From: a virus
DNA length: 42,818 nucleotides
Direction: 5' to 3' (one strand)
Virus record (IMG/VR): IMGVR_UViG_3300048930_000051
Span: 1 to 42,818 of that record
In this document: positions 649 to 38,403 of the stretch, piece after piece
Position numbering within the stretch: position 1 is the first letter of the stretch
Layout: the number at the start of each line of letters is the position of its first letter
The notes under the pieces: model-generated
Databases searched by the model: none
What the model saw: only the letters and a program-made list of their open reading frames with translations
Told to the model about the DNA's origin: nothing
Program-made: the position numbers and the translations under genes

Positions 649-665
649 GGGACATCGCCGCATGT
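649..665 (+). promoter_or_regulatory. late motif copy 1 (putative leaderless promoter)
   Basis: GGGACA-N5-GCATGT, followed after 5 nt by GTG at 671. It is the first of seven copies along the late arm and heads the terminase transcription unit. No Shine-Dalgarno precedes the start codon. The motif overlaps in-frame upstream starts at 647 and 662, which argues for GTG 671 as the true start. Confidence 0.65.
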
Positions 666-670
666 TCTCC

Positions 671-1114
671 GTGGCACGACGTTTCTCAGAGCTTCAGAAG
701 TCCTACATCAACTTCCTGGTGACGCCCAAGGCGCTCCGCGACCCTGATGGGCCGAAGAACGACACCGAGTGGGCGAACGCTAACCACATTCGTCAGGCGC
801 AGCTGACGAAGTGGCGCAACGACCCCGAGTTCCAGATCGAGTGGCAGAAGCGGCTTGCTCGGGCTCGGGTGACGCCCGATCGGATCAACGACATCTACGA
901 CGGGCTGTACGAAGCGGCCACAAAGGGCAACGTCCAGGCGGCGAAGCTGTACTTGGAGTCCAACAACCGCCTGAACCCGCCTCGGGAGCTGCTGGACGAG
1001 TCCAAGGTCACGTCGGTTTCGACCCTGAGTGACGACGAGCTGGCCGCCCTGTTGGCCCAGGCGGCGGAATCCGAGCTCGCCAAGCGTTCGGGCGCTGATG
1101 ACGACGACGCCTGA
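671..1114 (+). CDS. terminase small subunit (putative)
   Basis: About 147 residues. The middle reads as a helical DNA-binding domain (an Ala-Asn-rich segment then KWRNDPEFQ), followed by IYDGLYEAATKGNVQAAKLY, the pattern seen after the HTH in small terminases of the phBC6A51 type, where the protein recognises the packaging site. The C-terminus is Glu/Asp-rich and ends DDDDA. It lies directly before the large terminase, overlapping it by 17 bases. GTG 671 is chosen because it sits 5 nt after the late motif; GTG 647 and ATG 662 are in-frame alternatives that lie within the motif. Confidence 0.8.
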   Translation: MARRFSELQKSYINFLVTPKALRDPDGPKNDTEWANANHIRQAQLTKWRNDPEFQIEWQKRLARARVTPDRINDIYDGLYEAATKGNVQAAKLYLESNNRLNPPRELLDESKVTSVSTLSDDELAALLAQAAESELAKRSGADDDDA

Positions 1115-2780
1115 CGGCTTCGATTTCGATGATCTGCTGTGGGAGCGGGATCGTCGGCGGTTCCGTGGCTCCGACGGCGATGTGGACTCCCAGGTCGCTG
1201 GATTCGAGGCGTTCTGCCGTGAGCACGTCTGGATTCAGCACCCGCTAGGGCGTCGGCTGTTCGAGCTCCGTGACGAACAGGTCACGGTGGCTCGCTCGTA
1301 CATCGAGCAGGACAAGACGATCTCGCTGAAGGCCCGCCAGATCGGGTTCACGACGGTCACGATGGCGTACGTCCTGTGGCGGTCGCTGTTCTTCGATGAA
1401 TGGACGACGATCGTCCTAAGCAAGAAGGAACGGGACGCCCAGTCCAACCTGCGCATGGCGATCTTCGCCTACGGGAACCTGGACGACAAGATCAAGTCGC
1501 GGCTGCCGAAGCGCACCGACAACTCGTCCATGACGATGACGTTCGACAACGGGTCGTGGATCGAGTCCCACCCGTCGATGGGCGACCCTGCCCGTGGCCG
1601 CACGGTGCGGACGATGGTGCTGGACGAGTGGGCGTTCATGCCGAACCCTGACGAGGCGTGGGCTGCCGTGGAGCCTGTGACGGATGTGGGCGGTCAGATC
1701 ATCGTGTTGTCCACGGCCAACGGCTGGGGCAACCTGTTCCATGAGACCTGGCGCAAAGCCAAGACGGGTGACAACGGGTTCAACCCGATCTTCTTCCCGT
1801 GGTGGGCGGTTCCCGACCGCCTGACGGAAGCCGACAAGGACGACCCACTCAGCGCCCCGTGGTTCATCTCCAAGTGCCGCCAGCTGCCCGAGTGGCAGCG
1901 CGCCCAAGAGTACCCTTCGTCTGAGGACGAGGCGTTCATCAAGTCGGGCAACATGTTCTTCGATCTGGCGGTGCTGGAGGCCCAGCCGCTGGACACGCCG
2001 CTGCTGGTCGGGAATCTGGTGAACCCGCTGGGCGTGGATTCCCCACGCGGTCGGGAGTTCATCAAGAACGACACGGGCTACATCAACGTGTGGGCGCAGC
2101 CGAAGCCGTACGGAACGTACGTCATCGGTGCTGACGTGGCCGAAGGTCTGAGCCACGGCGACTTCTCGTCCGCCCATGTGATCGACTGCGCTGCTACGAA
2201 GCCACCTGCCGCCCAGTTGGCACAGGTGGCGGCGACCTGGCACGGACACATCGACCCTGATCTATTTGCGTACGAGCTCGCTGCGCTGGGTTGGTGGTAC
2301 GGGACGGCGCTGGTCGGCGTCGAGGCCAACAACCACGGCATGACCACGCTGAAGGCGCTGAAGCGCATCGGCTACCCACGAATCTACTTGCGACGGGACC
2401 TGGGGTCCCGCACCGAGAACCAGTCGGATCGACTGGGCTGGTTCACGTCGGCGGCATCGAAGCCGCTGATGATGGACGAGTTGGCGGGTGAGATGCGCAA
2501 CCAGGCGTTGCGCTGCCCCGACAACTCCACGATCGAGGAAATGCGCGGCTACGTGCGCAACGAGAAGGGGAAGCTAAGTGGTTCCCCCCACGATGACCGT
2601 GTGATCTCGTTGGCGATCGCCAACCAGATGCGCAAATGGGCCACCGACCCGATCTACAACGACGATTCGGTCGTGAAGGAGTTCACGGTCATGTGGGCGT
2701 ACAACTCGCTCCAGGCCCAAGAGCAGGAAGCGAACAAGCGCAGGGTGCTGGGCGCACACAACGTGCGCCGCCCCCGTTGA
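1098..2780 (+). CDS. terL: terminase large subunit
   Basis: 560 residues; the DNA-packaging motor with ATPase and nuclease domains. An adenine/Walker-A-type segment LKARQIGFTT is at about residues 77-86, Walker B TMVLDEWAF at about 172-180 and the coupling motif LSTANG at about 204-209. The RNase-H-like nuclease domain starts with an Asp in VIGADVAEG at about residue 346, continues with GVEANNHG at about 407-414, and has the late acidic pair SPHDD at about 496-500. ATG 1098 is preferred over upstream frames because it overlaps the small-subunit stop slightly, as is usual here. Full length for the family. Confidence 0.95.
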   Translation: MTTTPDGFDFDDLLWERDRRRFRGSDGDVDSQVAGFEAFCREHVWIQHPLGRRLFELRDEQVTVARSYIEQDKTISLKARQIGFTTVTMAYVLWRSLFFDEWTTIVLSKKERDAQSNLRMAIFAYGNLDDKIKSRLPKRTDNSSMTMTFDNGSWIESHPSMGDPARGRTVRTMVLDEWAFMPNPDEAWAAVEPVTDVGGQIIVLSTANGWGNLFHETWRKAKTGDNGFNPIFFPWWAVPDRLTEADKDDPLSAPWFISKCRQLPEWQRAQEYPSSEDEAFIKSGNMFFDLAVLEAQPLDTPLLVGNLVNPLGVDSPRGREFIKNDTGYINVWAQPKPYGTYVIGADVAEGLSHGDFSSAHVIDCAATKPPAAQLAQVAATWHGHIDPDLFAYELAALGWWYGTALVGVEANNHGMTTLKALKRIGYPRIYLRRDLGSRTENQSDRLGWFTSAASKPLMMDELAGEMRNQALRCPDNSTIEEMRGYVRNEKGKLSGSPHDDRVISLAIANQMRKWATDPIYNDDSVVKEFTVMWAYNSLQAQEQEANKRRVLGAHNVRRPR

Positions 2781-2782
2781 AT

Positions 2783-2799
2783 GGGACATCCGTGCCTGT
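2783..2799 (+). promoter_or_regulatory. late motif copy 2
   Basis: GGGACA-N5-GCCTGT, with ATG 2806 beginning 6 nt after it. It lies two bases after the large terminase stop and would start a unit covering the small zinc protein, portal, 4984 gene and hydrolase. No Shine-Dalgarno precedes the start codon. Confidence 0.7.
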
Positions 2800-2805
2800 G
2801 TCTTG

Positions 2806-3057
2806 ATGGCTTTGAGCACCGACCCCCGACATTGTGAGATCGGCCCCGAAGGTTGCTTCGGGTGCCGTGCGCGCTATTGGAGGTTCAACCCTGGCGCGCT
2901 GGGAATCTCATACCGCCAAGGCCGTGACTTCTTCCACGGCACCACCCTGAAGGAGTCGGTGGACGAGAACGTGCGGTTGGCGAAGGCCAACGGCATCGAC
3001 ATCGAACCCGTCGTCGGCCCCAGTCCCGTTCCGACCTCTGCCCTGGGCGTGCTGTGA
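2806..3057 (+). CDS. small protein between terminase and portal
   Basis: 83 residues, not recognised. The N-terminal part has HCEIGPEGCFGCR, a Cys/His cluster that could bind one zinc. The remainder is mixed helix and strand with a Pro-rich tail. ATG 2806 lies 6 nt after a late motif; a TTG at 2803 also reads in frame. Its stop overlaps the portal start by 3 bases (GTGA). Small zinc-finger-like proteins in this position are common in phage head clusters; the role is unknown. Confidence 0.7.
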   Translation: MALSTDPRHCEIGPEGCFGCRARYWRFNPGALGISYRQGRDFFHGTTLKESVDENVRLAKANGIDIEPVVGPSPVPTSALGVL

Positions 3058-4958
3058 TCTACAACCCGAAGGACCCGCTGGAGAAGCAGGCCGACCAGTG
3101 TCGTCAGCGGTTGGCGTCGTCCAAGTCGTGGCGTGATTCCGAGAAGTACGACGAGACCTGGAACCGCCTGAAGGACCTGTATGCGCTGAAGCACTACGAG
3201 GGTTTCAGCGCCCAGGATCGGGTTGCTGTTGCGGTGTCGTTCGCCACGATCAACGTGATCGGCCCGTCCATTTCGGTCAACAAGCCGAAGACCACGGTGC
3301 TTGCCCGCAAGCCCGAGGACAACTCCAAGGCCATCATCGCTGAAGCGGTGCTGGACTGGCTGTGGGAGACAGGCGACGTTGGTGACGAGTTCCGTCGGGC
3401 CGTCAAGGACTTCCTTGTGGTCGGCCACGGGTGGGTCAAGACGGGCTGGCGGCTGCGCCAGAAGATGGTGGACCGCCCCACCGACGAGATCGACGCCGAG
3501 TTCGCAGAGCTCGTGGGCCAGATCGAGGAATCGGCGCTGGCCGATCCCGAGATGGCGGGTGCGATGCCCACCGATGACGAGATCATGGCGGGGATCTCTA
3601 CGTCCAAGATGGTCACCGTCGAGGATCGGGTGTTCGTGGAGCGGGTGTCGCCCCACGACATGTTCGTGGACCCGAACGCCACGTCACTGAACGATGCCTG
3701 CTGGATCGCCCAGCGGCTGGTGCGCCCCGCCTCCGAGGTTCGGGCCGACAAGACCTATGAGCCCAAGGCGCGCAAGGCCATCAAGGCGGATCTGGAAGCC
3801 CGTTGGGGCGAGAACCGTGCGAAGCGCAAGCCTGACCAGTCTGAGTCCCAGGACCAGATGGTCACGCTGTGGGAGTTCTACGATCTGAAGTCCAAGACGG
3901 TCTGCGTGTTCGCTGACCAAGGCAAGGGCTTCCTGGTGAAGCCCACGCCGATCCCGTACAAGATCGGGCATCCGTTCGTGATGCTGCGGAACTACGACGT
4001 TCCCGACGCGTTCTACCCGATCGGTGATCTGGAGGCGATCGAACCGCTTCAGCATGAGCTGAACCGCACCCGCAACCAGCTGATGCAGACTCGGGACCAG
4101 TTCTCCCGCAAGCTGCTGTACCGTGCCGAGGCGTTCGGCCCCGAGGGTCGCCAGGCCCTGGAGGCCAAGGGCGACTCGATGGTGCCTGTGGTGGCGGGCA
4201 TCGACTCGCTGAACGATCTGGTCTACGCGCTGCCCGTGAACAACATCCCTGGGGATCTGTTCAACTACAGCCAGCAGCTGGAGAACGACGTCAACACGGT
4301 GTCGGGTGTGTCCGACTACCAGCGTGGCGCTTCCCCTGAGATCCGCCGCACCGCCACCGAAGCGTCCATGATCCAGGACGCGGTGAACGCCCGTTCGGCG
4401 GACAAGCTGGCGATCATCGAGAAGGCGATCGCTCAGATCGGCAAGAACATGATGGGCCTGTGCCGTCAGTACATGACTGGCCCGCAGGTCGCCCGCATCG
4501 TGGGTGCCCAGGGGCTTCCGATCTGGGTTCCGTTCTCCCGTGAGAACATCGACGCCGACATGGACTTCACCGTCGAGGGCGGGTCCACCATGCCGAAGAA
4601 CGAGGCGTGGCGTCAGAACCAGGCGATGCAGTTGATGAACACGCTGACCCCACTGATGGAGTCGGGTGTTGTGAACGTGGTCGAGGTCGTCAAGTACGTG
4701 ATGACCGCCTTCGGCGTCAAGACCCCCGAGAAGTTCATCCAGGAGCCCCCGCCGATGATGGGCGGTCCCCCTGGGATGCCCCCAGGGATGGTGCCGCCTG
4801 GGATGGGGGCACCGCCCGAGGCGGAGCCCCCCGCCCCCGAAGCCGATGACCCCGCCATGACGGAACCTGGGATGGGCGCTGTCCCGCCCGAGATCCTGGC
4901 GCAACTCGAAGGCCAACTCCCCAACGGCCTGACCCTGCCAACGATGGGGCTGGCTTGA
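3054..4958 (+). CDS. portal protein
   Basis: 634 residues. It forms the dodecameric channel at the capsid vertex for DNA entry and exit. The N-terminal half reads as a P22-type portal: a helical start, then RLKDLYALKHYEGF, a segment INVIGPSISVNKPKTTV, and VGHGWVKTGWRLRQK. The central region has a long helical stretch, LEPLQHELNRTRNQL-like, at about residues 325-345. The C-terminus is low-complexity Pro/Gly/Met-rich. The GTG start at 3054 overlaps the preceding stop as GTGA. Size fits P22-like portals and supports podovirus morphology. Confidence 0.9.
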   Translation: MIYNPKDPLEKQADQCRQRLASSKSWRDSEKYDETWNRLKDLYALKHYEGFSAQDRVAVAVSFATINVIGPSISVNKPKTTVLARKPEDNSKAIIAEAVLDWLWETGDVGDEFRRAVKDFLVVGHGWVKTGWRLRQKMVDRPTDEIDAEFAELVGQIEESALADPEMAGAMPTDDEIMAGISTSKMVTVEDRVFVERVSPHDMFVDPNATSLNDACWIAQRLVRPASEVRADKTYEPKARKAIKADLEARWGENRAKRKPDQSESQDQMVTLWEFYDLKSKTVCVFADQGKGFLVKPTPIPYKIGHPFVMLRNYDVPDAFYPIGDLEAIEPLQHELNRTRNQLMQTRDQFSRKLLYRAEAFGPEGRQALEAKGDSMVPVVAGIDSLNDLVYALPVNNIPGDLFNYSQQLENDVNTVSGVSDYQRGASPEIRRTATEASMIQDAVNARSADKLAIIEKAIAQIGKNMMGLCRQYMTGPQVARIVGAQGLPIWVPFSRENIDADMDFTVEGGSTMPKNEAWRQNQAMQLMNTLTPLMESGVVNVVEVVKYVMTAFGVKTPEKFIQEPPPMMGGPPGMPPGMVPPGMGAPPEAEPPAPEADDPAMTEPGMGAVPPEILAQLEGQLPNGLTLPTMGLA

Positions 4959-4983
4959 TGCCCCGAACTGAAGTGGAGACACC

Positions 4984-5556
4984 GTGACTGACCACATTGG
5001 CGACCTGATGGCGCAGTTCTTCGGTGGTGGCACCGACGAACAGAAGGACTTCTATGCCGCCGCAGCCGCCACTGGGCGGACTGCTGCGGATGTCATCACG
5101 AAGGGCTACATCACCCACGTCGCACCCGAGGCCACCACGGCGTCGCTTGTGGTCCCTGCGGCCACATGGACCAACGTGCCCGAGCTGATTACCACGTCGT
5201 TCGTGATGCCCCCTGGTCTTGTCAGGGCCTCCACCCCCGCCGCCCTGACGGTTCACTCGGCTGGCGGTCACCTGACCAACGACCGACTGGGGCTGCGCTA
5301 CCGCATCAACGGCACGGGGTCCTGGCATCTGGCGGCTTCCGCCGCTCCGTCTTCGTTCAGCGGTGGCCTCGCCACTTGGAATCCGCTGGTGGCGTTCATC
5401 CCGACGATCTCGGCCACGGCCACCGACCCCGAACCCTATGACGACATCGAGATCGCCTGGGCGCACTACAGCGCAGCGGGCACCACGCTGACCGTCCAGG
5501 TCTCCGACACCACCACCAACGGCATCTGGCCCCACATCTGGGTCGAGGCCCCGTGA
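4984..5556 (+). CDS. putative virion structural protein
   Basis: 190 residues, not recognised. After a short helical start (about residues 1-40) it is rich in Thr, Ala, Val and Gly and looks all-beta, ending in a tryptophan-containing strand (IWPHIWVEAP). GTG 4984 is preceded by GGAG with 6 nt spacing, a good Shine-Dalgarno. It sits between the portal and the hydrolase and overlaps the latter as GTGA. A head-surface or fibre-like role is plausible by context only. Confidence 0.75.
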   Translation: MTDHIGDLMAQFFGGGTDEQKDFYAAAAATGRTAADVITKGYITHVAPEATTASLVVPAATWTNVPELITTSFVMPPGLVRASTPAALTVHSAGGHLTNDRLGLRYRINGTGSWHLAASAAPSSFSGGLATWNPLVAFIPTISATATDPEPYDDIEIAWAHYSAAGTTLTVQVSDTTTNGIWPHIWVEAP

Positions 5557-6338
5557 CTTCCCGCTCTGGGCTGGTGTGGGGTGCCACGGCCAGTGGTTCC
5601 AGGTATCTGCGCCGCACGACTGCGGCGTGGAACCGAACGTTGCCACCCGTGCTTGTGGTCGGGGGTTGGCCCTACGACCGCTACTACCACGCCTACCTGA
5701 CGCCGACCCCTGCTGGCTTCGTGGACCCGCTGCTGCGGGCGGGCTATGCGGTGTACGAGGTCTTCACGGGGTCCTGCTGGGGCACGACCACCGTGACCCC
5801 CAGCGGGCGCGGTGGGATCGGACGGGAAGCGATCACCGAGGTTCTGGCCGAGGCCGAAGCCGACGGCTGCAATGTGTCGAACGGGGCCAACTTGTTCGGC
5901 CAGTCGCACGGCGGTTGCGTCGTCACCAACTGGGCGTGGCGCAACCCCGATGACGTCAACGCCGTGTTCCTGCACCTGCCTGGCATCGACCTGGCGTACC
6001 TGTACGACCACAACTCGGTCGTGACGGGCTGGGGGCTTCCGAACGTCCAGGACTCGCTGGAGGCGGCGCACGGTGGTACCGACAGGGCATCTTGGCTTCC
6101 ACTGGCAGCCGACTATGACCCCGTGCGCAACGCCGAGGAATACGCCGAGCTCGGCCCCAAGACCCATGTGTTTCTGCATGAAGGCGACGAGATCGTGGAC
6201 GTTGAGTCCACGTCCGAGTGGGCCACCGAGGTTGGCGCAAAGCTGACCGTTGCCGACGGCGGATCGCACATCTTCCCCTATTCGGAACCCGAATGGAACG
6301 ATGACATTGTGCTTGGGTGGTTCCGCTCCCAGCAGTAA
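5553..6338 (+). CDS. alpha/beta hydrolase in the head-gene cluster
   Basis: 261 residues. It has the marks of an alpha/beta-hydrolase fold: PPVLVVGGWP near residue 31, nucleophile elbow FGQSHGG with Ser118, acidic candidates Asp212 and Asp216 in HEGDEIVD, and His239 in GGSHIF, in the expected order for a Ser-Asp-His triad. No signal peptide. It is translationally coupled (GTGA) to a structural-type gene, between portal and scaffold, so it may be a virion-borne esterase or depolymerase acting on host surface polymers. That role is inferred; the fold assignment is fairly secure. Confidence 0.8.
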   Translation: MTSRSGLVWGATASGSRYLRRTTAAWNRTLPPVLVVGGWPYDRYYHAYLTPTPAGFVDPLLRAGYAVYEVFTGSCWGTTTVTPSGRGGIGREAITEVLAEAEADGCNVSNGANLFGQSHGGCVVTNWAWRNPDDVNAVFLHLPGIDLAYLYDHNSVVTGWGLPNVQDSLEAAHGGTDRASWLPLAADYDPVRNAEEYAELGPKTHVFLHEGDEIVDVESTSEWATEVGAKLTVADGGSHIFPYSEPEWNDDIVLGWFRSQQ

Positions 6339-6340
6339 GT

Positions 6341-6357
6341 GGGACACTCTTGCATGT
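6341..6357 (+). promoter_or_regulatory. late motif copy 3
   Basis: GGGACA-N5-GCATGT upstream of the scaffold gene. Here GAG, not a start codon, stands at the expected +1 (6364). The scaffold ATG is 48 nt further on and has its own strong Shine-Dalgarno, consistent with a transcript that has a leader. Confidence 0.65.
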
Positions 6358-6411
6358 ATCTCCGAGCGAACAACTTGAAACGCAAGATTCGCCAGGGAGA
6401 AGAAGATAACC

Positions 6412-7191
6412 ATGACGGACGTTACTGCCGCCGAGATCCCCGCCCCCGAGATGGAGTTGGTGGACAACTCGTCAGCGGATCAGGAAACCGTCGCAGCGGA
6501 ACCCGAGGTCCCGATCCTCAGTGTTGACGAATATGCGGATTACCGCGTGCCCGTCAAGATTGGTGGGGAGGAACAACTGGTCCCGATCACCGAGGCCCTG
6601 AGCGGCTACCAGCGCCAAGCGGACTACACCCGCAAGACGCAGGAGATCGCCCAGCTTCGGGAGGAAGCTGAGTACGGACTGAACCTGGCCCGTGCATTGG
6701 AGGAAGACCCCAGCAAGACGCTGGCGATTCTTCAGATGCTTCACCAGGATGTGGACGTTGCTGCCGCCGAGGAAGAACTGCTGGACCCGCAAGAGAAGCG
6801 TTTGCGGCAAGTCGAGTCGTTCATCGAGGCGCAGAACCAAGCCGAGTTGGAAGCCAAGGTCACTCGTGAACTTGATGCTTACAGCTCGCAGTACGGACTG
6901 GAGCCCGACGAGGTTCTTCAGCACGCGCTGGACCTGAACCTGGGAGTCGAACAGCTGGACCTGGCAGTCAGGTCGCTGATGTTCGAGAAGTCCCAGATCC
7001 AGGCTGCCGTTTCTGAGCACGAAGCATCGCAGGCAGCCGCTGAGGCGGCGGTCGGAGATGCGAAGGCCCAGGCGGCGTTCATCGCTGGCGGGAGTGCCAC
7101 GACCCCTGATGCAACGCAGGCTCAGATCCCCACTTCGAGCGACCCCCTGGAGGTCGCCCGAGCGGTGTGGACACGGGCTGGGTTGCTGTAA
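6412..7191 (+). CDS. capsid scaffolding protein
   Basis: 259 residues, acidic and strongly helical with coiled-coil character; assembles the procapsid and is then lost. Residues about 44-75 carry the VPVKIGGEEQLVPITEAL... GYQRQADYTRKTQE pattern that is recurrent in phage scaffolds. Long Glu/Gln/Ala-rich helices follow to about residue 230. It lies directly before the major capsid gene, the standard position. A strong Shine-Dalgarno (GGGAGAAG) precedes ATG 6412. Confidence 0.9.
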   Translation: MTDVTAAEIPAPEMELVDNSSADQETVAAEPEVPILSVDEYADYRVPVKIGGEEQLVPITEALSGYQRQADYTRKTQEIAQLREEAEYGLNLARALEEDPSKTLAILQMLHQDVDVAAAEEELLDPQEKRLRQVESFIEAQNQAELEAKVTRELDAYSSQYGLEPDEVLQHALDLNLGVEQLDLAVRSLMFEKSQIQAAVSEHEASQAAAEAAVGDAKAQAAFIAGGSATTPDATQAQIPTSSDPLEVARAVWTRAGLL

Positions 7192-7226
7192 CGACCCACC
7201 AGAACTAACCCCTAGGAGGGGGAATC

Positions 7227-8183
7227 ATGGTTGACCACAACCCCGACTTCAACACCCTGGCGACGACCACTCTCCAGTCCTACGAGGACGGTTTCGAGGA
7301 GTTCATCTCGACCCGTTCGACCGTCTACCAGATGCTGAAGCAGTACAACCGCATCGAGTCGGCCACTGGCCGTTCGATCGTTGTGCCGCTCATGTACGGT
7401 GACAACTCGACCAGCGGCACGTACGACCCGTACGAGGATCTGGCGATCACCGCTCAGGACGGCATGACCGCTGCCGAGTACACCCCCAAGTGGCACTCGG
7501 TCACCGTGGCGATCAGCGGCCCCGAGAAGGCCATGAACGCTGGTCCCGAGCAGCAGATCGACCTGCTCGCTGCCAAGATCAAGCAGGCCCAGCTCACCGC
7601 CGCCGAGGACTTCGAGGACATGTTCCAGTCCGATGGCACGGGCAACTCGGGGAAGAACTTCCTGGGTATCCAGGCCCTGATCGGTGATGCTTCCAGCTCG
7701 GTCACCACGGTCGGCGGCATCGACGCCTCCGACTCCACCAACGCCTACTGGACTTCCCAGATCCTGCGTTCGGCTGGGACCCTGACCCTGAAGAAGCTGT
7801 CGCACCAGTACAACCTGGGCGTCCGCGGCTCCAAGCGTCCGAAGTGGGCTCAGACCACCCTGGATCTGTACGAGGCTTACGAGGCTCTGCTCCAGCCCGC
7901 CCAGCGGTTCACGAACCCGAAGACGGCTGAGGCTGGCTTCGAGAACCTGATCCACAAGGGCTGCACCGTGGTCTGGGGCGACTCCGTGGAGTCTGGCACC
8001 TGGACCAACATCAACCCCGACCACATCACGTTGAAGAAGTGGAACGGCACCTGGCTGAAGGCCACCCCGATGCAGAAGCCCGTCAACCGTGACGCCTTCT
8101 ACTCGCAGTACCTCAGCTACGGCCAGCTGGTCACCGATAACCGTCGGGACCTGGGCACCAAGCTGGAGGGCCTGACCCCCTAG
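7227..8183 (+). CDS. major capsid protein
   Basis: 318 residues. The position after the scaffold, the excellent Shine-Dalgarno (AGGAGGGG before ATG 7227), the highly biased codon use and the following strong terminator all point to the most highly expressed virion protein. Sequence features fit an HK97-fold capsid: an N-terminal helical arm (TLQSYEDGFEEFISTRS), an E-loop-like stretch around residues 50-90 and a C-terminal mixed domain. No protease gene was seen and no cleaved propeptide is evident. Confidence 0.9.
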   Translation: MVDHNPDFNTLATTTLQSYEDGFEEFISTRSTVYQMLKQYNRIESATGRSIVVPLMYGDNSTSGTYDPYEDLAITAQDGMTAAEYTPKWHSVTVAISGPEKAMNAGPEQQIDLLAAKIKQAQLTAAEDFEDMFQSDGTGNSGKNFLGIQALIGDASSSVTTVGGIDASDSTNAYWTSQILRSAGTLTLKKLSHQYNLGVRGSKRPKWAQTTLDLYEAYEALLQPAQRFTNPKTAEAGFENLIHKGCTVVWGDSVESGTWTNINPDHITLKKWNGTWLKATPMQKPVNRDAFYSQYLSYGQLVTDNRRDLGTKLEGLTP

Positions 8184-8204
8184 TAGGGCCGTCATCCCGA
8201 GCAG

Positions 8205-8240: not shown

Positions 8241-8252
8241 TGTTCCCATGGC

Positions 8253-8269
8253 GGGACATACCTGCCTGT
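8253..8269 (+). promoter_or_regulatory. late motif copy 4
   Basis: GGGACA-N5-GCCTGT, starting 13 nt after the capsid terminator. This placement is the best positional argument that the motif is a promoter, since the next genes need new transcription. The expected +1 is not a start codon; the next gene begins 43 nt later with GGAG in its leader. Confidence 0.7.
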
Positions 8270-8318
8270 AGCCACGAGGCCATGTGGCCGACCGTCACCC
8301 CCTTGGAGTTCACCCAAC

Positions 8319-8945
8319 ATGGCTACCCCTGTCGCCCCCACCGCCGTTGCGGATACCGCTACCATCAAGCAGAACGTCACCACGGCGGTCAACGTCAAGG
8401 CGAACGACACCGCTGGTACCGACGCCACCCCGACCACCGTGTCGCTGACTTCGGCTGCGGTGACCTTCGCACCGACGGGCCAGCCGTCGGGCGTTGTGAT
8501 CTCGAACAACAACCTGCGGGCCACCAAGGAAGGCGTCGGGGTGTGGGCCATCGACTCCAACCTCGTGCACTTCACCCCCGAACCCAAGTTCGTGGGCGTG
8601 GCTGATGCCGTCAAGTACATCGTGACCGACTCCCAGCCGCTGGCGTCGAACGCCGCCACCGTCACCATCACCGTCACCGCCGCCACCGACCTGGCTTCCG
8701 CCACCCGCACCTACGGCGTGTCTGCTGACGGTCAGCGGTACGTGGATGTGGTGCTGGACGAAGAGATCAGCGCCAACGAGCCCGTCAGTGCCGACTCGAT
8801 CGGGCTGTCGAACATCGACCCCGACAACGTGTGGGTCAAGGCACCTGCCGCTTCGGGTCTGCTGTTCCCGAACAGCCACTCCCCCGCCGTGTACCCGACC
8901 TCCACCATCGCCAACGGTTCCACCGTTCGCTTCTACGGGGCCTGA
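8319..8945 (+). CDS. cadherin/Ig-like virion protein
   Basis: 208 residues. The N-terminus (APTAVADTATIKQN...TAVNVKANDT) reads like tandem cadherin/Ig-like beta-sandwich repeats of surface and adhesion proteins, continuing to VKYIVTDSQPLASNAATVTITV at about residue 120. The C-terminal 75 residues form a separate beta-rich segment. It comes right after the major capsid gene, so a capsid decoration protein or head fibre is likely. GGAG lies about 10 nt before ATG 8319. The fold is recognised; the virion role is inferred. Confidence 0.75.
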   Translation: MATPVAPTAVADTATIKQNVTTAVNVKANDTAGTDATPTTVSLTSAAVTFAPTGQPSGVVISNNNLRATKEGVGVWAIDSNLVHFTPEPKFVGVADAVKYIVTDSQPLASNAATVTITVTAATDLASATRTYGVSADGQRYVDVVLDEEISANEPVSADSIGLSNIDPDNVWVKAPAASGLLFPNSHSPAVYPTSTIANGSTVRFYGA

Positions 8946-9229: not shown

Positions 9230-9232
9230 TAG

Positions 9233-9910: not shown

Positions 9911-9919
9911 GGGGGCACC

Positions 9920-12503: not shown

Positions 12504-12506
12504 TGT

Positions 12507-12523
12507 GGGACAAAGGGGGGTGT
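12507..12523 (+). promoter_or_regulatory. late motif copy 5
   Basis: GGGACA-N5-GGGTGT with ATG 12530 starting 6 nt after it. The N5-GGG part also gives a purine-rich run 10 nt before the ATG, so this copy cannot by itself separate promoter from ribosome-binding function. Confidence 0.6.
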
Positions 12524-12529
12524 ATCTAG

Positions 12530-12958
12530 ATGGCACAGGAACTGAACTCGAATGAGCGGTGGTGGTTCAAGAACCGCGCCGCCCAGGCGGATCGCCAGTT
12601 CCGCTATGGCAAGGCCCAGAACGACTACGAGCGTGGGCTGGCAAAGACCCAGGCCACCTGGGACCGTTCGGACCTGATTCGCCAGTTCACCAACCAGCGC
12701 AACTCGCTGGCTGGTGGCTTCCAGCGACGTGGCGTGATGAACTCTGGCCTGTATCAGCGGGGCTACAAGGACTGGTCGGAGAACAAGGTGCGGTCGTTGA
12801 CCCGCCAGACTTCGGCTGCCGATGCCCGCCAGAGGGGCTTCGACATTGCCGCCTATTCGCTGGCTGACATCAGGCAGAAGACACTGGATGATCTCCAGGC
12901 GCAGAAGTTGGCTTACGAGCAGTCCCTTTCCGAGTTTGTGAAGGCGAATCAGGTATGA
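12530..12958 (+). CDS. internal virion protein candidate (small, helical)
   Basis: 142 residues, charged and almost entirely helical with Gln/Arg-rich stretches (RQFRYGKAQNDYERGLAKTQ) and a C-terminal coiled-coil-like segment (IRQKTLDDLQAQKLAYEQ). ATG 12530 lies 6 nt after a late motif. It overlaps the next helical protein as ATGA. Position in the podovirus ejection-protein region suggests an internal or tail-associated virion component; not recognised by sequence. Confidence 0.7.
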   Translation: MAQELNSNERWWFKNRAAQADRQFRYGKAQNDYERGLAKTQATWDRSDLIRQFTNQRNSLAGGFQRRGVMNSGLYQRGYKDWSENKVRSLTRQTSAADARQRGFDIAAYSLADIRQKTLDDLQAQKLAYEQSLSEFVKANQV

Positions 12959-14235
12959 GCACCCCCAAGTCCAGCGAGACCAAGAAGAAGGGCAAGAAGA
13001 AGGGCGGCTCGTCGGCAATGATCGTTCCGCCGAACCCGCTGAAGGATCTGCCCCCGCAGATCGAGTCAACCTTGCGTGGGCAGCTCAGGCCGAAGCGAGA
13101 GGACGGGGCGAAGCTGCGGTCCTCCGATCTGATGAAGGCGATGGTCCAGAAGGGGATTCTGGACTCCCGCATCCAGCAGCATGGCAACATGAAGAAGGAA
13201 CTGGACGGACTGTTCGCCAGCCGTTCAGCCGAGAACATGGGCACGTCGCTGTCGTCGCTGTTCGACGCCATCATGGGACGAGTGCCGTCCACGCCCCAGG
13301 TCCAGCCCAACCTGATCGACGTGAACTCGTTGGTTGCCCCGTACGCCCAGGCTCGTGACGCTGCCAACTCCCAGGCAACCTCGAACCGTGCACGGCTGGA
13401 AGAACTGCTGATGCGAGCCCAGGCCGACGCCAAGATGTCGGCTGGGGTTGGCAGGGACCAGGCTGCCGCCGCTGGTGCCCAGATGAAGGAGGGTGCTGCG
13501 AACGCCCGCCTCCAGCAGGAGTCGGATGTTCGTGCCGCTGCGGCCGCCGCCGCCGCCCAAGGCATGGACCCGACGGTGGTTGCCAGTCTCGGTGACGCTG
13601 GCGATCAGGCCATCGCCGCCACCGCTCAGAACCGTGCCAGTGGCCAGGAGTACGCCAAGGCCATGGGGTCGGCTGCGGAACTGGAAGCCACCCGCCGTGC
13701 CCAGGATGTGGCCGACCAGAACCGTGGTGCGAACACGAACCTGGACCAGTCGCTGCTTCAGGCCGTGATTGCGCTGAACGCCCAGGAAGCGCAGACCCGC
13801 ACCCAGGCTGAACAGGCCAACGCTGCTGCCATGAACGAGGCTTCCCAGGCGAACGCTGGTTTGGCTCGCCAGGGGCTCCAGGATCGGGTGTCGCTGGCCG
13901 ACGCCATCCAGCAGATGGCTGCCCAGTCGAACGCGTTCGATACCCCGTACCGTTCGTCGGTGCTGGAGTCGCTGTCAGGTGATGTGGGCATCGCCCGCAC
14001 GGCGATGCGTGGTGCCATCGAGACCTCGGACACCTACGACGAGGCGTACGCCAAGATCGCTTCGGTGCTGGAGGCGGATGACCGCAAGCGGGAAGCCGCT
14101 GGACTGGGTGGTCGGGATTGGGACTACCCGTGGATCGAGGCGCAACTTCAGAAGGCGTATGCCACCGACCAGACCCGCCTGAAGCCTGGCGCTGGCGACT
14201 CGCTACTGAAGATGTTCACGCTGGGAATGGGCTAA
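12955..14235 (+). CDS. internal virion (ejection) protein candidate
   Basis: 426 residues. A Lys-rich N-terminus (about residues 6-18) and a Pro-containing linker precede a long Ala/Gln-rich helical region (about 120-340) with coiled-coil character, including an eight-alanine run near residue 186. Such composition is typical of podovirus ejection proteins that leave the capsid with the DNA. It is coupled to the upstream gene by ATGA and followed 4 bases later by the NlpC/P60 gene. Function is inferred from composition and position. Confidence 0.7.
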   Translation: MSTPKSSETKKKGKKKGGSSAMIVPPNPLKDLPPQIESTLRGQLRPKREDGAKLRSSDLMKAMVQKGILDSRIQQHGNMKKELDGLFASRSAENMGTSLSSLFDAIMGRVPSTPQVQPNLIDVNSLVAPYAQARDAANSQATSNRARLEELLMRAQADAKMSAGVGRDQAAAAGAQMKEGAANARLQQESDVRAAAAAAAAQGMDPTVVASLGDAGDQAIAATAQNRASGQEYAKAMGSAAELEATRRAQDVADQNRGANTNLDQSLLQAVIALNAQEAQTRTQAEQANAAAMNEASQANAGLARQGLQDRVSLADAIQQMAAQSNAFDTPYRSSVLESLSGDVGIARTAMRGAIETSDTYDEAYAKIASVLEADDRKREAAGLGGRDWDYPWIEAQLQKAYATDQTRLKPGAGDSLLKMFTLGMG

Positions 14236-14239
14236 CCCC

Positions 14240-14917
14240 ATGGCGTCACCCGCCCAAGTCATGGGCATCCAGCCCGCCACCGTCAGGTGGTCCCAGGGCG
14301 GAACGAACGCAAACGCCAAGAAGCCACGCATCGACGATGGTGCGACGGCCAGCGCCTTCGCACGCATCGGTGAGTCGAACGCTGGGGGGTATGCCGCTGG
14401 TGGCCCTACCCGTGACTGGTCATCCATGGTGCAGCCCCCTGCCAACATGGGGCCGTATGCCAAGCCAGGTCAGCCGCTCTCCGATGTGGGCGGCATGGGG
14501 CCGTACGTCACCAGTGGCCCCAAGGTCTCCAAGGCGATTGATTTCGCCAAGTCCCAGCTGGGTGACCCGTACGTCTGGGGTGCTGGTCGCGATCTGGGCA
14601 ATGCGAACCCGAGTGGGTTCGATTGCTCGGGGCTCACCTATTGGGCGTTCGGTCGCGCTGGGATCAAGCTGGGTGCAACCGCTGACGCCCAGTTCAAGCA
14701 GGTCCCCAAGGTTCAGGGCGGGCTGGCGAACGCCAAGCCTGGGGATCTGGTGTTCTACAACTTCGGTCGGCTGGGCGCTGGGCGTGCCGATCACGTTGCC
14801 ATCTACTTGGGCAACAACCAGATCCTGCACGCACCCAACAAGAAGTCCCCTGTGAAGATCGCCACGATGACGCCTGGCTATGCCAGCTCGATCATCGGTG
14901 TCGGAAGGGCTGGCTGA
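14240..14917 (+). CDS. NlpC/P60 peptidoglycan endopeptidase, virion-associated
   Basis: 225 residues. The first 90 are low-complexity linker. The catalytic domain follows: AIDFAKSQLGDPYVWGAG, Cys129 in FDCSGLTYW, His185 in ADHVAIYLG and a third polar position at His197 in ILHAPN, the standard NlpC/P60 triad order. It cuts D-gamma-glutamyl bonds in cell-wall peptides. It lies among internal virion genes and overlaps the transglycosylase by one base, so it probably opens the wall during DNA entry instead of acting in lysis. Confidence 0.9.
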   Translation: MASPAQVMGIQPATVRWSQGGTNANAKKPRIDDGATASAFARIGESNAGGYAAGGPTRDWSSMVQPPANMGPYAKPGQPLSDVGGMGPYVTSGPKVSKAIDFAKSQLGDPYVWGAGRDLGNANPSGFDCSGLTYWAFGRAGIKLGATADAQFKQVPKVQGGLANAKPGDLVFYNFGRLGAGRADHVAIYLGNNQILHAPNKKSPVKIATMTPGYASSIIGVGRAG

Positions 14918-15513
14918 TGGCGCTGAACCCGATCGTGCAACGTGTGCTGGCGAACCTGGCGGCTGGCGAGGGTGGACCCGACCAGGGGCCACGTATGGCC
15001 CAGCAGCAGCAGTCGCTGATGAACCAGTTCGTGAACCAGTCCCCGACCATGGGTGGAACGACCACAGATCCCGTTGGCGGTCAGTTCTGGCAGTCCACGG
15101 GTGCCGCTGGTGGTCCCCAGTCCTTCTGGCAGAAGGTCGGCAACGGTGTCGATCTGGACAAGATCCTGGCGACGATTCGGGCCAAGGAATCGGGCGGCAA
15201 CTACGGGGCCAAGAACCCCGTGTCGTCGGCTTCTGGTGCGTACCAGTTCATCAACTCCACCTGGAACAACTACGGCGGCTACAAGTACGCATACCAGGCT
15301 CCGAAGGCGGTACAAGATGCCAAGGCCAAGGAGCACATCCAGTCGATCTTGAAGAAGTACGGGAACACGCTGGAGGCGGTTCCCGCTGCTTGGTACACGG
15401 GCACCTACAAGGGCAAGGGGAAGTTGAACTACAACCCTGGTGGCCCTGGTAACCCGCTGACGGTCCAACAGTACGTGGACGCCTGGATCAAGCAATACCT
15501 GAGTATGAAGTGA
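14917..15513 (+). CDS. lytic transglycosylase-like virion enzyme
   Basis: 198 residues. After a Gln-rich linker the domain starts near residue 78: LDKILATIRAKESGGNYGAK with catalytic Glu91, then SASGAYQFINSTWNNYGGY, the SLT/Rpf-like lysozyme pattern. Later VPAAWYTGTYKGKGKLNY and VQQYVDAWIKQYL complete the fold. It would cleave the glycan strand. ATG 14917 overlaps the NlpC/P60 stop by one base. Together the two enzymes form a wall-penetration pair. Confidence 0.9.
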   Translation: MALNPIVQRVLANLAAGEGGPDQGPRMAQQQQSLMNQFVNQSPTMGGTTTDPVGGQFWQSTGAAGGPQSFWQKVGNGVDLDKILATIRAKESGGNYGAKNPVSSASGAYQFINSTWNNYGGYKYAYQAPKAVQDAKAKEHIQSILKKYGNTLEAVPAAWYTGTYKGKGKLNYNPGGPGNPLTVQQYVDAWIKQYLSMK

Positions 15514-15528
15514 AACGGCCTGTGATGG

Positions 15529-15534
15529 TACAGT
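15529..15534 (+). promoter_or_regulatory. putative -10 box of a leaderless promoter
   Basis: TACAGT lies exactly 6 nt before ATG 15541, the same geometry as the early leaderless promoters, and the same hexamer lies 6 nt before the ATG at 34712. No clear -35 is seen (TGAAGT at 15506 with 17 nt spacing is weak). Confidence 0.4.
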
Positions 15535-15540
15535 GGAACC

Positions 15541-15669
15541 ATGCCAACCGACGCTGACCTGGCTATCGGGTCCCTGCTGTTCGTGATCTTCCTGGTGGGG
15601 GCCGTGCTGTTCTGGCTGGCCGCACTTGTGTACGTGTACGTGCGGGACTGGTTGAAGCCACCCAAATAG
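15541..15669 (+). CDS. 42-residue single-pass membrane protein
   Basis: A short gene. One long hydrophobic segment (about residues 8-32, GSLLFVIFLVGAVLFWLAAL and following) is followed by a basic end, RDWLKPPK. It sits between the transglycosylase gene and the large ejection-protein gene. No Shine-Dalgarno; a TACAGT box 6 nt upstream suggests separate leaderless expression. It could be a holin-like or ejection-conduit membrane peptide; no family was recognised. Confidence 0.65.
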   Translation: MPTDADLAIGSLLFVIFLVGAVLFWLAALVYVYVRDWLKPPK

Positions 15670-15678
15670 CCCCATTTC

Positions 15679-15695
15679 GGGACTGAACTGCCTGT
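15679..15695 (+). promoter_or_regulatory. late motif copy 6
   Basis: GGGACT-N5-GCCTGT, with ATG 15702 beginning 6 nt after it. One base of the first half differs from the GGGACA consensus. It heads the large ejection-protein gene; no Shine-Dalgarno is present. Confidence 0.65.
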
Positions 15696-15701
15696 AACGA
15701 G

Positions 15702-18700
15702 ATGGCAGGACTGTTTGACGACTATGGCGCAGGAACCACCCGCAAGTCGGGTGGTTCTAGTGACCCTGGCGGGTCCAGCTACTCCCGCACGGCCGATGGG
15801 CGCAAGCGCCCCAAGTACGTCGCTGACCAGATGCGCAAGCGGGCGTCGTCCAAGTCCGAGCCCGCAAACCCCGAGGCGTTCCTGGAGGATCTGACCTCCA
15901 CGGACCTGAAGGCCATCCTTAGCAGCCCCGACACCCCCGAGTCGCTGAAGAAGGTTGCCAAGAAGATCGTCGAGGGCAAGGCTGATGGCAAGCCCAAGGA
16001 CGGGATCGTCGGTCTGCTGACCAACAACCCGCTGACGGACACGATGGGTGCCGTCCTGGATCTGATCGACAAGCCCAAGCGTGCCGTGGTGGCGACAGTG
16101 GACGAGGGCCTAGAGCAGCTGTACGGCTACGAGGATGGCTCCTCGTGGGCCGACAACGTGCTGCGCAAGAAGCAGTACGGGTTCGGTGACGTGTGGCAGA
16201 ACGCCGTCGATTACGAGAACTCCCAAGGCGATGGCGAAGTGTTCGGCATCGACGCCGACAACAAGTGGCTGGGCCGTGGTGTCGGGCTCGTGGGCGACAT
16301 CGGGCTGGACCCGCTCACGTATCTGGGTGTAGGTCTTGTGGACGACACCGCCAGGGCCAGTGGTGCTGCGGCCAAGGCGTTCAAGCCTGCCCGTTCGGAC
16401 ATCGCCCGTCGTGCGTTGACCGAAGCAGGCGAAGCCGCCAAGGGCGGTGACGCCAGCGCCGTGACGGCATTCCAGGAGTTGGCGCAACGGGTCGGCACGG
16501 GCGGGCGGGTGACCGCCGCCGAAGCCGAGAAGCTGGGGCTGGAAGGTGGCATCCGTTTCGGTGGCAAGCGCATCTTCGGTGATGCGGCCACATCCACGAA
16601 CCTGACCCGTCCCCTGACGTACGTGCGCTCCAAGGGTATGAACGCGCTGGGGCCGAAGCTGGCGAAGGTGTTCGGTGCCGACGAGATCGCGCTGGAGCGC
16701 CAGCTGCTGCGCTCCAAGGACACCGATCCCGTCAAGTGGGCTGCGGCGTTCGCTTCCAAGGACGCCAAGAAGGGCGGTCAGCTTGCCGCTGGCCGCTTCG
16801 GTGCCCGCAAGATCGTCGAGCTGGACGACATCTTCAACGAGCTGAAGAACAGCGGTGTCGATGGTGTGACGGTGAACCGTGCGCTGATCGGTGACCCCGA
16901 CGCCGCCGAGGCGGTCGGGGACGCCCTGCCACGGCTGCGTGCATGGCTGGACGATGTGCGCTCCGAAGCCGAAATCTACGGGTATCGGGAGAACTACGCC
17001 CCCCGTCTGTTGACCGACGAGGCCCGCAAGTTCCTGGAGACCAAGTGGGGTGCCACCGACCGTGGCTCGAACGGGGCTCGGACCACTTTGGAGGCGGTGC
17101 CGTGGTTCGAGAAGAAGTCGTACCAGATCGGTGACGAGTTCGGTGATCGGGTGCTGGGTTCACCTGAGCTTGTGGATGAGTTCGGTGATGTGGTCGAGGA
17201 CCAGATCCAGGGGCTGATCTCCAAGTGGGGTGGCCCTGAGGCCATCTACGTGGATGATGCCTTCCAGACGCTGCCACGATACGTGGCGGGCGTCCAGCAC
17301 CGCATCAAGGCCCAGTTCATCACCGAGAAGCTGCGTGAAGCAGGGGTGATCGTCACCGACGGGGAAGCCCTGGGACGGGCGACCACGAGGGCGGCGAAGC
17401 GGGCTGGGTTGGATGACATCGCCGCCAACGTCGATGACATCGCCCGTGACGCCGACGAAGCCGACAAGGCCATCGAACGCATCGAAGCCAAGATCACCGA
17501 CACCCGACCCGAGGTTGCCCCGAAGCTGGAGGCGGCATCGTCGCCCGATGCTGCCCCAGCGATGAAGCTGGAAGGCGATCGGGTCAACTGGGAGTCACGG
17601 CTGGATGACGCCAACCCTGCCCAGTTGAAGTTCACCGACCTGAAGAACCATCCTGGGTGGCAGCGCACGTTCAAGAACGAGCTTCAGATCGGCTTGGAGC
17701 GGTTCGGCAAGCCCGACGATTTCGAGATGTGGCCGTCGTGGATGGTCGAGGCGTACTCGAATGCGGGCAAGGTCGCTGACGACCCTGGCCCGTTCCTGCG
17801 GTTCGTGGACCAGGCCAACAAGCTTTTCAAGACCCAGGCCGTGTTCTCGCCTGGCTTCCACATCCGCAACTCGATGGGCGCGTACTTCAACTCGTTCGTG
17901 GCGGGCGTGGACATCCGTTCGTACCGTGAGTTCCGCCAGCTGATGCGTCAGTACCGCAAGGGCGGGTACGAGGCTTTGCCCGAGGGTTCCCGTGGGGTCA
18001 TGCGAACCATCATCGAGTCTGGTCTGATGGACGACGGCAACCGCTATGCGAACGAGCTGGCGTCCGCAGCCGATGGCGGCGGTCGCATCGTGCTCGGTGA
18101 CGTGTCTACTGCACGGCCACAAGGACGGCTCCAGGGGCTGCGAGACACGGCCATCGGCCCCAAGGCCCCGATGACCAAGGAACGGGTGCTGGAAGCCGCT
18201 CAGAAGCCTTTCAGGCACCCGCTGAACACGCTGAACGACAACCCCGCCACCCGTGCCTCACGGTTCGCTGGGGAGCGCATCGAGCACTTCCATCGTGGGT
18301 CGGTGGCGTACGACACGTTGAAGAAGGGCGGCTCCATGGAGACCGCCATCGACAAGGTGTACCAGTTCCACTTCGACTACGGGGACCTGAGCCACTTCGA
18401 GTCCAAGTACATGCGCCGTCTGGTGCCGTTCTGGACGTGGACCTCCCGCAACATGCCGCTCCAACTGGAGATGGCGCTGACCCAGCCCAAGATGTACCAG
18501 CGGTTCCGTGCCGTCCAGCAGTCGCTGGAACAGGGCTCCACCCAGGACCCGCTGGACCCCGAGTGGCTGACGAAATCGCCCACGAACATCAACATGTCGG
18601 GCTTCGACAAGATGGAGTTGGGACCGTTCTCGATCGGCGGTGAGGGCTCGTATCTGCTGCCCGATCTGCCGTTCCAGGATGTGGGCGAGAAGACCACCCA

Positions 18701-19187
18701 GCTTTCCCAGCAGGGTCCGACGGCGTTGCTGATGGACGCTGCGCCGATCATCAAGACGCCGCTGGAAACCACGTTCGGCAGGCAGCTGTTCAGCGGGGCT
18801 CCGCTGACCAACGAGTTGACCCCGATCCCGAACACGTGGTCGTTCCTGGTGCCGATCATCCGAGGCGCAACAGGCGACTCGGTGATCTCCAAGAACCCGA
18901 ACACGGGGGACTGGATGATCTCGAACAAGGACGCCTACAAGATCGAGCAGGCGCTTCCGCTGCTGGCACGTTTCCGACGGCTCGCCCCGTCGGAACAGAA
19001 GTACCAGGACCGTGCAGACGCTTCCTGGCTGTCGTTCTTGGGCTTCGGTACCCGCCAGGTCACCGAGAACGACCGCAAGAACAGCGCCTATGGGCGGCTG
19101 GATGACCTACAGACGCTTCGGGACCGCTTGAAGGACCAGGGCTACGACGTGCGCTCAGAGCGCACACGACAAATTGAAGGCGGTTGA
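15702..19187 (+). CDS. large internal virion/ejection protein
   Basis: 1161 residues, the largest gene. The N-terminus is Ser/Gly-rich; a Gly-rich hydrophobic patch GRGVGLVGDIGLDPLTYLGV follows near residue 190. Long charged helical regions with linkers dominate, including AENYAPRLLTDEA-type sequence near residue 430 and WTSRNMPLQLEMALTQPKMY near residue 915. Size, position after the wall-degrading enzymes and mixed helical/membrane-active character fit a podovirus ejection protein that helps form the trans-envelope DNA channel. No catalytic motif was recognised. Confidence 0.75.
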   Translation: MAGLFDDYGAGTTRKSGGSSDPGGSSYSRTADGRKRPKYVADQMRKRASSKSEPANPEAFLEDLTSTDLKAILSSPDTPESLKKVAKKIVEGKADGKPKDGIVGLLTNNPLTDTMGAVLDLIDKPKRAVVATVDEGLEQLYGYEDGSSWADNVLRKKQYGFGDVWQNAVDYENSQGDGEVFGIDADNKWLGRGVGLVGDIGLDPLTYLGVGLVDDTARASGAAAKAFKPARSDIARRALTEAGEAAKGGDASAVTAFQELAQRVGTGGRVTAAEAEKLGLEGGIRFGGKRIFGDAATSTNLTRPLTYVRSKGMNALGPKLAKVFGADEIALERQLLRSKDTDPVKWAAAFASKDAKKGGQLAAGRFGARKIVELDDIFNELKNSGVDGVTVNRALIGDPDAAEAVGDALPRLRAWLDDVRSEAEIYGYRENYAPRLLTDEARKFLETKWGATDRGSNGARTTLEAVPWFEKKSYQIGDEFGDRVLGSPELVDEFGDVVEDQIQGLISKWGGPEAIYVDDAFQTLPRYVAGVQHRIKAQFITEKLREAGVIVTDGEALGRATTRAAKRAGLDDIAANVDDIARDADEADKAIERIEAKITDTRPEVAPKLEAASSPDAAPAMKLEGDRVNWESRLDDANPAQLKFTDLKNHPGWQRTFKNELQIGLERFGKPDDFEMWPSWMVEAYSNAGKVADDPGPFLRFVDQANKLFKTQAVFSPGFHIRNSMGAYFNSFVAGVDIRSYREFRQLMRQYRKGGYEALPEGSRGVMRTIIESGLMDDGNRYANELASAADGGGRIVLGDVSTARPQGRLQGLRDTAIGPKAPMTKERVLEAAQKPFRHPLNTLNDNPATRASRFAGERIEHFHRGSVAYDTLKKGGSMETAIDKVYQFHFDYGDLSHFESKYMRRLVPFWTWTSRNMPLQLEMALTQPKMYQRFRAVQQSLEQGSTQDPLDPEWLTKSPTNINMSGFDKMELGPFSIGGEGSYLLPDLPFQDVGEKTTQLSQQGPTALLMDAAPIIKTPLETTFGRQLFSGAPLTNELTPIPNTWSFLVPIIRGATGDSVISKNPNTGDWMISNKDAYKIEQALPLLARFRRLAPSEQKYQDRADASWLSFLGFGTRQVTENDRKNSAYGRLDDLQTLRDRLKDQGYDVRSERTRQIEGG

Positions 19188-19519
19188 AACCGTTGTACGG
19201 GCAGACGATTCTGGGACTCAGCGAGGGGGGCACGGTTGCGATCGTGGTTGCCATCGTCGGTGCGATCGGGCTGGTGGTGCCAGCCGCGATCAATGGGTGG
19301 GTCCAAACGTCCAAGCTGAATCGCAAGGTCGATGAACTGGGTTCAGCCATAGCGACGAACCATGGCAAGCGCCCAGGGGAGTATCTGGAGATGGTGGCGG
19401 AAGCCCTCCAGGCGACCGTCCACATCCGTCACACACTGGACGAGCACACCATCCAGGACCAGGAACGGTTCGACGAGCTGACCGCCCAGATCCAGCAGGC
19501 GGGACAGAAGCGCCTGTAG
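19184..19519 (+). CDS. membrane protein with coiled coil (holin/spanin-like candidate)
   Basis: 111 residues. One strong transmembrane helix, GTVAIVVAIVGAIGLVVPAA, lies at about residues 16-35, followed by a charged helical tail (YLEMVAEALQATVHIRHTLDEHTI...) likely to be coiled coil. The likely start is TTG 19184 overlapping the preceding stop (TTGA); TTG 19193 is an alternative. It lies directly before the amidase and holin, so it probably belongs to the lysis cassette. The exact role is uncertain. Confidence 0.65.
   Translation: MKPLYGQTILGLSEGGTVAIVVAIVGAIGLVVPAAINGWVQTSKLNRKVDELGSAIATNHGKRPGEYLEMVAEALQATVHIRHTLDEHTIQDQERFDELTAQIQQAGQKRL
19501..19517 (+). promoter_or_regulatory. late motif copy 7
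   Basis: GGGACA-N5-GCCTGT within the last codons of the membrane-protein gene, with GTG 19524 starting 6 nt after it. It heads the amidase-holin pair. Conservation of the motif inside coding sequence is notable. Confidence 0.65.
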
Positions 19520-38361: not shown

Positions 38362-38403
38362 TTGTGTTGCTCCATTCGTTGTGATCGGATTCAGTGTCGG
38401 GTT

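Follow-up and report, generated by a model that had tools for sequence, protein, structure and literature searches.

The question raised by this locus is whether the element GGGACA-N5-GC(C/A)TGT, described in the original prediction as a seven-copy late motif resembling a compact leaderless promoter, acts in DNA as a promoter or in mRNA as a translation signal, and which protein would read it. The window analysed here covers the whole of a virus record (42,818 bases). Gene calls divided it into a rightward late block (0.65-20.5 kb), with the terminase, portal, scaffold and capsid genes at 1.0-8.2 kb, and a leftward block (20.5-42.5 kb). The closest annotated genome was that of the uncultured podophage MW202803 (42% identity for TerL and 38% for the capsid protein); no relatives of the window were obtained by a capsid-protein search of IMG/VR or by a DNA-level search of GenBank phages. 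Judging from the sequence, the host is probably an actinobacterium, because an Rpf-like transglycosylase domain is encoded in the window and the leftward block carries leaderless TANNNT promoters. A tyrosine recombinase gene was found at 34740-35843, and the phage may therefore be temperate. Both ends of the record consist of long G runs (1-53 and 42806-42818), possibly an assembly artefact.

All seven sites were confirmed at the predicted coordinates on the + strand, with the same 5-nt internal gap, and all of them corresponded to gene junctions of the late block (Table 1). The consensus itself held exactly in five copies (649, 2783, 6341, 8253, and 19501; 0.04 expected), a number that was reached in none of 100 shuffles, and no exact match occurred on the minus strand. 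The other two departed from it, with one mismatch at 15679 and two at 12507. When two mismatches were allowed, the window contained nine matches against 11 expected, which is not above chance, so that the copies at 12507 and 15679 rest on position and not on sequence alone; in both, an ATG at a gene border follows after 6 nt, with the same geometry as in the exact copies. With a matrix derived only from relatives, six of the seven copies were the six best places in the window, 15679 being the sixth, and 12507 ranked 10th among + strand sites. A one-mismatch version of the motif, not mentioned in the original prediction, was also present on the minus strand (619-603), facing left just upstream of the copy at 649 and followed by no gene. 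Two other readings were rejected by inspection: a hairpin, since ACA/TGT pairing was not kept across copies, and a sigma-54 element (GG...GC), the spacing being one base short.

Table 1. Positions of the candidate late promoters, the predicted leader hairpin and the sigma region 4-like proteins in the window.
Feature	Position	Strand	Details
Candidate late promoter, copy 1	649..665	+	GGGACA-TCGCC-GCATGT, exact; predicted +1 GTG 671, small terminase-like gene
Candidate late promoter, copy 2	2783..2799	+	GGGACA-TCCGT-GCCTGT, exact; predicted +1 ATG 2806, directly after TerL stop
Candidate late promoter, copy 3	6341..6357	+	GGGACA-CTCTT-GCATGT, exact; predicted +1 6364, scaffold/capsid unit
Candidate late promoter, copy 4	8253..8269	+	GGGACA-TACCT-GCCTGT, exact; predicted +1 8276
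Candidate late promoter, copy 5 (weak)	12507..12523	+	GGGACA-AAGGG-GGGTGT; predicted +1 ATG 12530
Candidate late promoter, copy 6	15679..15695	+	GGGACT-GAACT-GCCTGT; predicted +1 ATG 15702 (1161-aa protein)
Candidate late promoter, copy 7	19501..19517	+	GGGACA-GAAGC-GCCTGT, exact; predicted +1 GTG 19524, amidase-like gene
Predicted 5' leader hairpin of scaffold/capsid transcript	6364..6393	+	RNA fold -8.0 kcal/mol, z -3.4
Candidate late specificity factor (137 aa), sigma region 4-like	24367..24780	-	PHROG 1740 sigma factor 4e-8
Paralogous sigma region 4-like protein, 139 aa	32571..32990	-	36% identity to 137-aa protein; TIGR02937 E 0.0014

The gaps between motif and start codon were, in the order of the copies, 5, 6, 54, 49, 6, 6, and 6 nt; the five close starts (5, 6, 6, 6, and 6 nt) thus agreed with what had been predicted. 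None of these five, that of the copy at 12507 included, was preceded by a Shine-Dalgarno of the type AGGA/GGAG/GAGG. The start behind the copy at 649 is uncertain, given that ATG 662, which falls within the motif, was chosen in the gene model in preference to GTG 671. The two distant starts (54 and 49 nt, behind 6341 and 8253) did have their own Shine-Dalgarno, as in the gene at 8319 that follows the second of them. Five of the seven window copies therefore showed the hallmark of leaderless mRNAs of the actinobacterial type, a putative 5' end on ATG or GTG with no Shine-Dalgarno, and in mycobacteria nothing more than a 5'-terminal ATG or GTG is needed for translation (PMC4633059). The 5' ends given in Table 1 were predicted on the basis of the constant gap of 5-6 nt, and transcription would probably start within 1-2 nt of them, giving leaderless messages where the start codon is close.

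In order to follow the motif in relatives, IMG/VR was scanned for GGGACA-N5-GCCTGT-N5/6-ATG, which yielded 67 stretches, most of them presumably chance matches. Six of these were relatives that have in common with the window the 1161-aa protein, the primase, the helicase or a sigma-like protein; they belonged to two lineages, in which the motif follows the homolog of gene 15702-19187. One of the six, of 25 kb and 43% GC (G005), very different from the window in base composition and with TerL and portal proteins 45% identical to its own, displayed three copies at equivalent junctions: at 2068, just after the TerL stop (window 2783); at 4546, between the portal stop and the scaffold gene (window 6341); and at 22205, behind the 1161-aa homolog (window 19501). 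The copy at 6068 of G004 was likewise equivalent to window 19501, and the spacers of these last two copies differed. The TerL of G005 (L171:225-2064) consists of two reading frames split by a ferredoxin-like ORF (1112-1393). TerL borders were read in 80 TerL relatives (743 kb in total). A first motif search of TerL relatives with GCCTGT as second half gave no match; the motif was found in them after the second half had been relaxed to NCCTNT and the junctions read by eye. GGGACA-N5-NCCTNT occurred six times in the 743 kb, always on the late strand and just behind TerL, in the arrangement GGGACA-N5-NCCTNT-N6-ATG. Other gaps between the two halves gave at most two matches each, except a gap of 6 (seven and two), whose matches came partly from one lineage (L013/L014). 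The original prediction was to be abandoned if the motif proved absent or random in relatives; the search found it kept at homologous junctions of very distant ones.

Most other relatives presented GTAACGA in place of GGGACA, with 146 occurrences on the late strand vs. 41 on the other. The distance from the end of GTAACGA to an ATG was 14-15 nt in 36 of 104 distinct sites, a peak that did not appear on the other strand, and the distance to the conserved leader AGAGCAACC was 15 nt in 10 of 13. When the GTAACGA and GGGACA classes were aligned, the box and a CCT element fell in the same register, 12 nt apart; GTGACA constituted a third box class. Taken as G[GT][AGT]AC[AG], the box started 21-24 nt before the ATG of the next gene at 33 of 51 distinct TerL borders, compared with a background of 285 of 14273 ATGs (2.0%) at the same loci (binomial 2e-43, which is overstated, related sequences not being independent). 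A Shine-Dalgarno was found at 2 of 38 borders with the box vs. 9 of 10 without it (Fisher 3e-7). These conserved junctions, together with an offset that ends at a start codon in some units and at a leader in others, lend support to the predicted promoter with transcription beginning at the start codon, and the late motif is very probably a promoter.

Neither the box nor a detectable sigma-like protein was present in MW202803. Its dyad counts were traced to another element, GTTTC-N4/5-GAAAC, and discarded as a late promoter; about 39 copies of this element (L006) occur on both strands, many just upstream of gene starts, and perhaps represent RNA hairpins or an operator, since their spacing is variable. 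The region before TerL held its own repeated dyad in each of several relatives (TCCCG-N4-CGGGA in L032 and L037, ATACG-N2-CGTAT in L024 and L026, CTCGG-N8-CCGAG in L083), and these dyads look like operators with changed specificity.

Two further classes of promoter-like elements were observed in the window. The leftward genes carry CCGTACA(T/A)CACCCAACTGTCA-N5-TANNNT-N6/7-ATG on the minus strand at 22411, 25736, 30771, and 33480, with a degenerate copy before 34712; this class is leaderless, has a normal -10, and probably corresponds to middle promoters with an activator box. A dyad GACCGTA...TACGGTC appeared at 38399-38427, 39858-39886, 40435-40463, 42569-42597, and 35919-35942, overlapping TTGACC-N17-TACGGT in several copies; these are probably early promoters with a repressor operator.

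Neither of the two sigma region 4-like proteins figured in the original prediction. The candidate reader of the late box is the 137-aa protein of Table 1, which also matched NCBIfam TIGR02937 (1.4e-9, below the cut-off of the model); the homologous protein of a relative matched Pfam Sigma70_r4_2 (1e-5, just below cut-off). The AlphaFold model of the 137-aa protein was confident at residues 60-125 and mostly of low confidence at 1-58, and Foldseek matched it to region 4 of ECF sigma factors (Mycobacterium tuberculosis SigL and Escherichia coli sigmaE region 4 on -35 DNA). Region 2, responsible for -10 recognition and melting, was not matched in profile searches with this protein, nor were the RinA/ArpU models of the Ltr family in NCBIfam, where the one related match, to a positive control sigma-like factor, was weak (E 0.018). 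With the window protein as query, no match was obtained by tblastn against GenBank phages or in a scan of IMG/VR. In a profile search the protein turned up in 11 relatives besides G003-G005, and it was present in every relative contig above 30 kb searched, except MW202803. Further sigma-like proteins were retrieved with class-wise queries, and 27 of 30 contigs picked in this way also encoded this TerL; boxes were read at the TerL junctions of these contigs, the late genes often lying outside the sigma-gene flanks. In the GTAACG class, the recognition helix was K.H.WRLRN with Trp (8 genomes and about 16 more), and the same residue was Ala or Asp in the GGGACA class and Ser in the GTGACA class; G037 combined the Trp helix with a TerL border that carries no box. 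The residue tracks the box as would be expected of a box reader, and shared ancestry can also explain the match, because both follow phage relatedness. On balance, we lean slightly towards the sigma-like protein being the reader. Our guess is that one of the two paralogs serves the middle promoters. In L180 (1459-2322), a long reading frame joins the sigma-like domain to a second domain resembling the DUF1599 protein of the window (23313-23864), and long frames with a sigma-like and a second domain were also noted, by frame length only, in G020, G024, G030, and G031.

Among other explanations, the one that survives best assigns the box to a different phage DNA-binding protein that would activate host primary-sigma promoters, the sigma-like protein being a bystander. 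Further HTH proteins are indeed encoded at 33450-34118 and 34425-34712, and in actinobacteria the sigma adaptation mediated by PafBC makes use of a box near -26 (PMC11804915). Nevertheless, the TANNNT of the housekeeping sigma70/sigmaA was not found at -12 to -7 of the late promoters, unlike in the putative middle promoters of this phage: the window has GCMTGT there, and at -11, the second position of a -10 element, 15 of 16 (94%) GGGACA-class sites had C instead of A. As the recognition-helix match of the sigma-like protein also speaks against a bystander role, we regard this explanation as unlikely.

An ordinary ECF-type promoter of host or phage, with normal -35/-10 spacing and initiation about 12 nt inside the annotated genes, would account for the resemblance of the box to ECF -35 elements; G[GT][AGT]AC[AG] has the form of the GGAAC/GTAAC-like upstream box of ECF sigma promoters. 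The sigma promoters of phage 7-11 (GTAAtg-(16)-aCTA; PMC8948821) point in the same direction. On the other hand, the ECF hallmark of about 16 nt between box and -10 element was not found here, and no element 15-19 nt after the box was common to ATG-type and leader-type sites. The start codons of relatives are, moreover, fixed by an N-terminal CxxC right after the ATG, which internal starts would omit, and the phage protein is without region 2. Such a promoter thus seems quite unlikely.

We consider it very unlikely that the motif is the promoter of an undetected phage RNA polymerase, single-subunit or strongly diverged. A compact element ending near +1 and the AT-rich stretch just before the predicted +1 in low-GC relatives would suit such an enzyme, but the T7-type domain PF00940 was detected in none of the 22 related records, the T7 control being positive (1e-110), in line with the earlier remark that no phage RNA polymerase gene is recognised, and the longest unexplained protein (1161 aa) sits in the late structural block.

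The distinction between a promoter and a translation signal comes from the scaffold/capsid unit. The same box offset leads to a start codon in some units and, in others, to an untranslated leader with the start codon further on, and this holds for the window, G005 and the relatives. The leader AGAGCAACC-N3-9-GGACTC(T) lies at the predicted RNA 5' end of this unit in L020 (4947), L030 (4225), L049 (7112) and about 18 other relatives. In the window, the hairpin at 6364 was better than nearly all shuffles, and RNA structure at 8276, the predicted +1 of the copy at 8253, was not above chance. A promoter is favoured because the scaffold/capsid box keeps an equal offset from the leader and not from the start codon; for an element read by the ribosome, a fixed distance to the start codon would be expected, whereas here the fixed distance is that to the predicted RNA 5' end. 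A translation-start element acting in mRNA at the start codon, like the SAS elements of cluster K mycobacteriophages, which likewise stand just upstream of starts (PMC3203893), would match the five of seven copies with a start 5-6 nt away and no Shine-Dalgarno, but this alternative, already raised in the original prediction, is highly improbable given that two window copies and their G005 equivalents are separated from the start codon by a long stretch that includes a Shine-Dalgarno, that the offset to the conserved untranslated leader in relatives equals that to the ATG, and that the motif is unlike SAS (GGGATAGGAGCCC).

We therefore return to the late promoter. It is fairly likely, as far as sequence comparison can tell, that the motif is a late promoter, leaderless in most units and read by host RNA polymerase redirected by a region-4-only factor. 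A large group of uncultured podophage-like viruses would share this promoter, of which the window motif would be the local form. Transcription would start on a purine, about 22-23 nt after the first base of the box G[GT][AGT]AC[AG] and about 10 nt after a weaker element of the CCT type. In most units, the first transcribed base would be the first base (A or G) of the start codon, resulting in leaderless mRNA, and the RNA of the scaffold/capsid unit would begin with a structured leader followed by a Shine-Dalgarno. Host RNA polymerase would be directed to the box by the sigma-like protein, which has a -35-binding domain and no recognisable region 2. Against a sigma reading stands the position of the box, which is 11-12 bp (one helical turn) nearer to the proposed start than would be expected of a sigma -35 element; the usual placing of sigma region 4 does not fit because the box is at about -22, and the -10 hexamer of no known sigma followed the box. 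A new bacterial-type promoter, in which a region-4-only phage protein binds a GNNAC box about 22 nt upstream and positions the host polymerase, with no recognisable -10, a start at the start codon and co-evolution of box and helix throughout the phage group, is a tentative possibility. No description of the late promoter was found in the part of the literature that our search covered.

With these results, promoters could be placed to the base in a large group of uncultured phages, and leaderless translation would be tied to a phage-wide late switch. The natural protein/box pairs (Trp-GTAACG, Ala/Asp-GGGACA, Ser-GTGACA) are suited to tests of sigma region 4 specificity. If a box at about -22 is indeed used through a region-4-only factor, the range of action of sigma-like proteins would be widened.

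Among known systems, phages 7-11 and phiEco32 encode sigma factors for late promoters (PMC8948821). The phiEco32-like phage 7-11 is alike in its phage sigma-family protein, host RNA polymerase, late-gene promoters and GTAA-type box; however, SaPh711_gp47 is active as a sigma by itself with normal spacing, whereas here there is region 4 only and a box about 22 nt before the proposed start. The gp36 promoters of phiEco32 (tAATGTAtA) are also phage-specific late promoters of one compact block, but gp36 is without region 4 and uses a single element near the start, the reverse of the region 4 alone found here. The cluster K SAS, located immediately upstream of start codons with rare exceptions (PMC3203893), is likewise a repeated one-strand element directly before starts and begins with GGGA. 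The window element is not one of them, differing in sequence and length, standing also before untranslated leaders (copies 6341 and 8253, 54 and 49 nt upstream of the start), and occurring only at late gene borders. PafBC of mycobacteria also enables the polymerase to work with a box located downstream of -35, although it is a WYL/HTH heterodimer with a -26 box and not a single sigma region 4-like domain. Finally, the Ltr late regulators of phages of Gram-positive bacteria (RinA, ArpU, and LtrC) are, similarly, small phage proteins that activate the genes for packaging and structure. The late promoter controlled by Ltr has a normal TATA box, and Ltr binds to several repeats that precede it (PMC13123087), in contrast with the window, where seven promoters have one box each.
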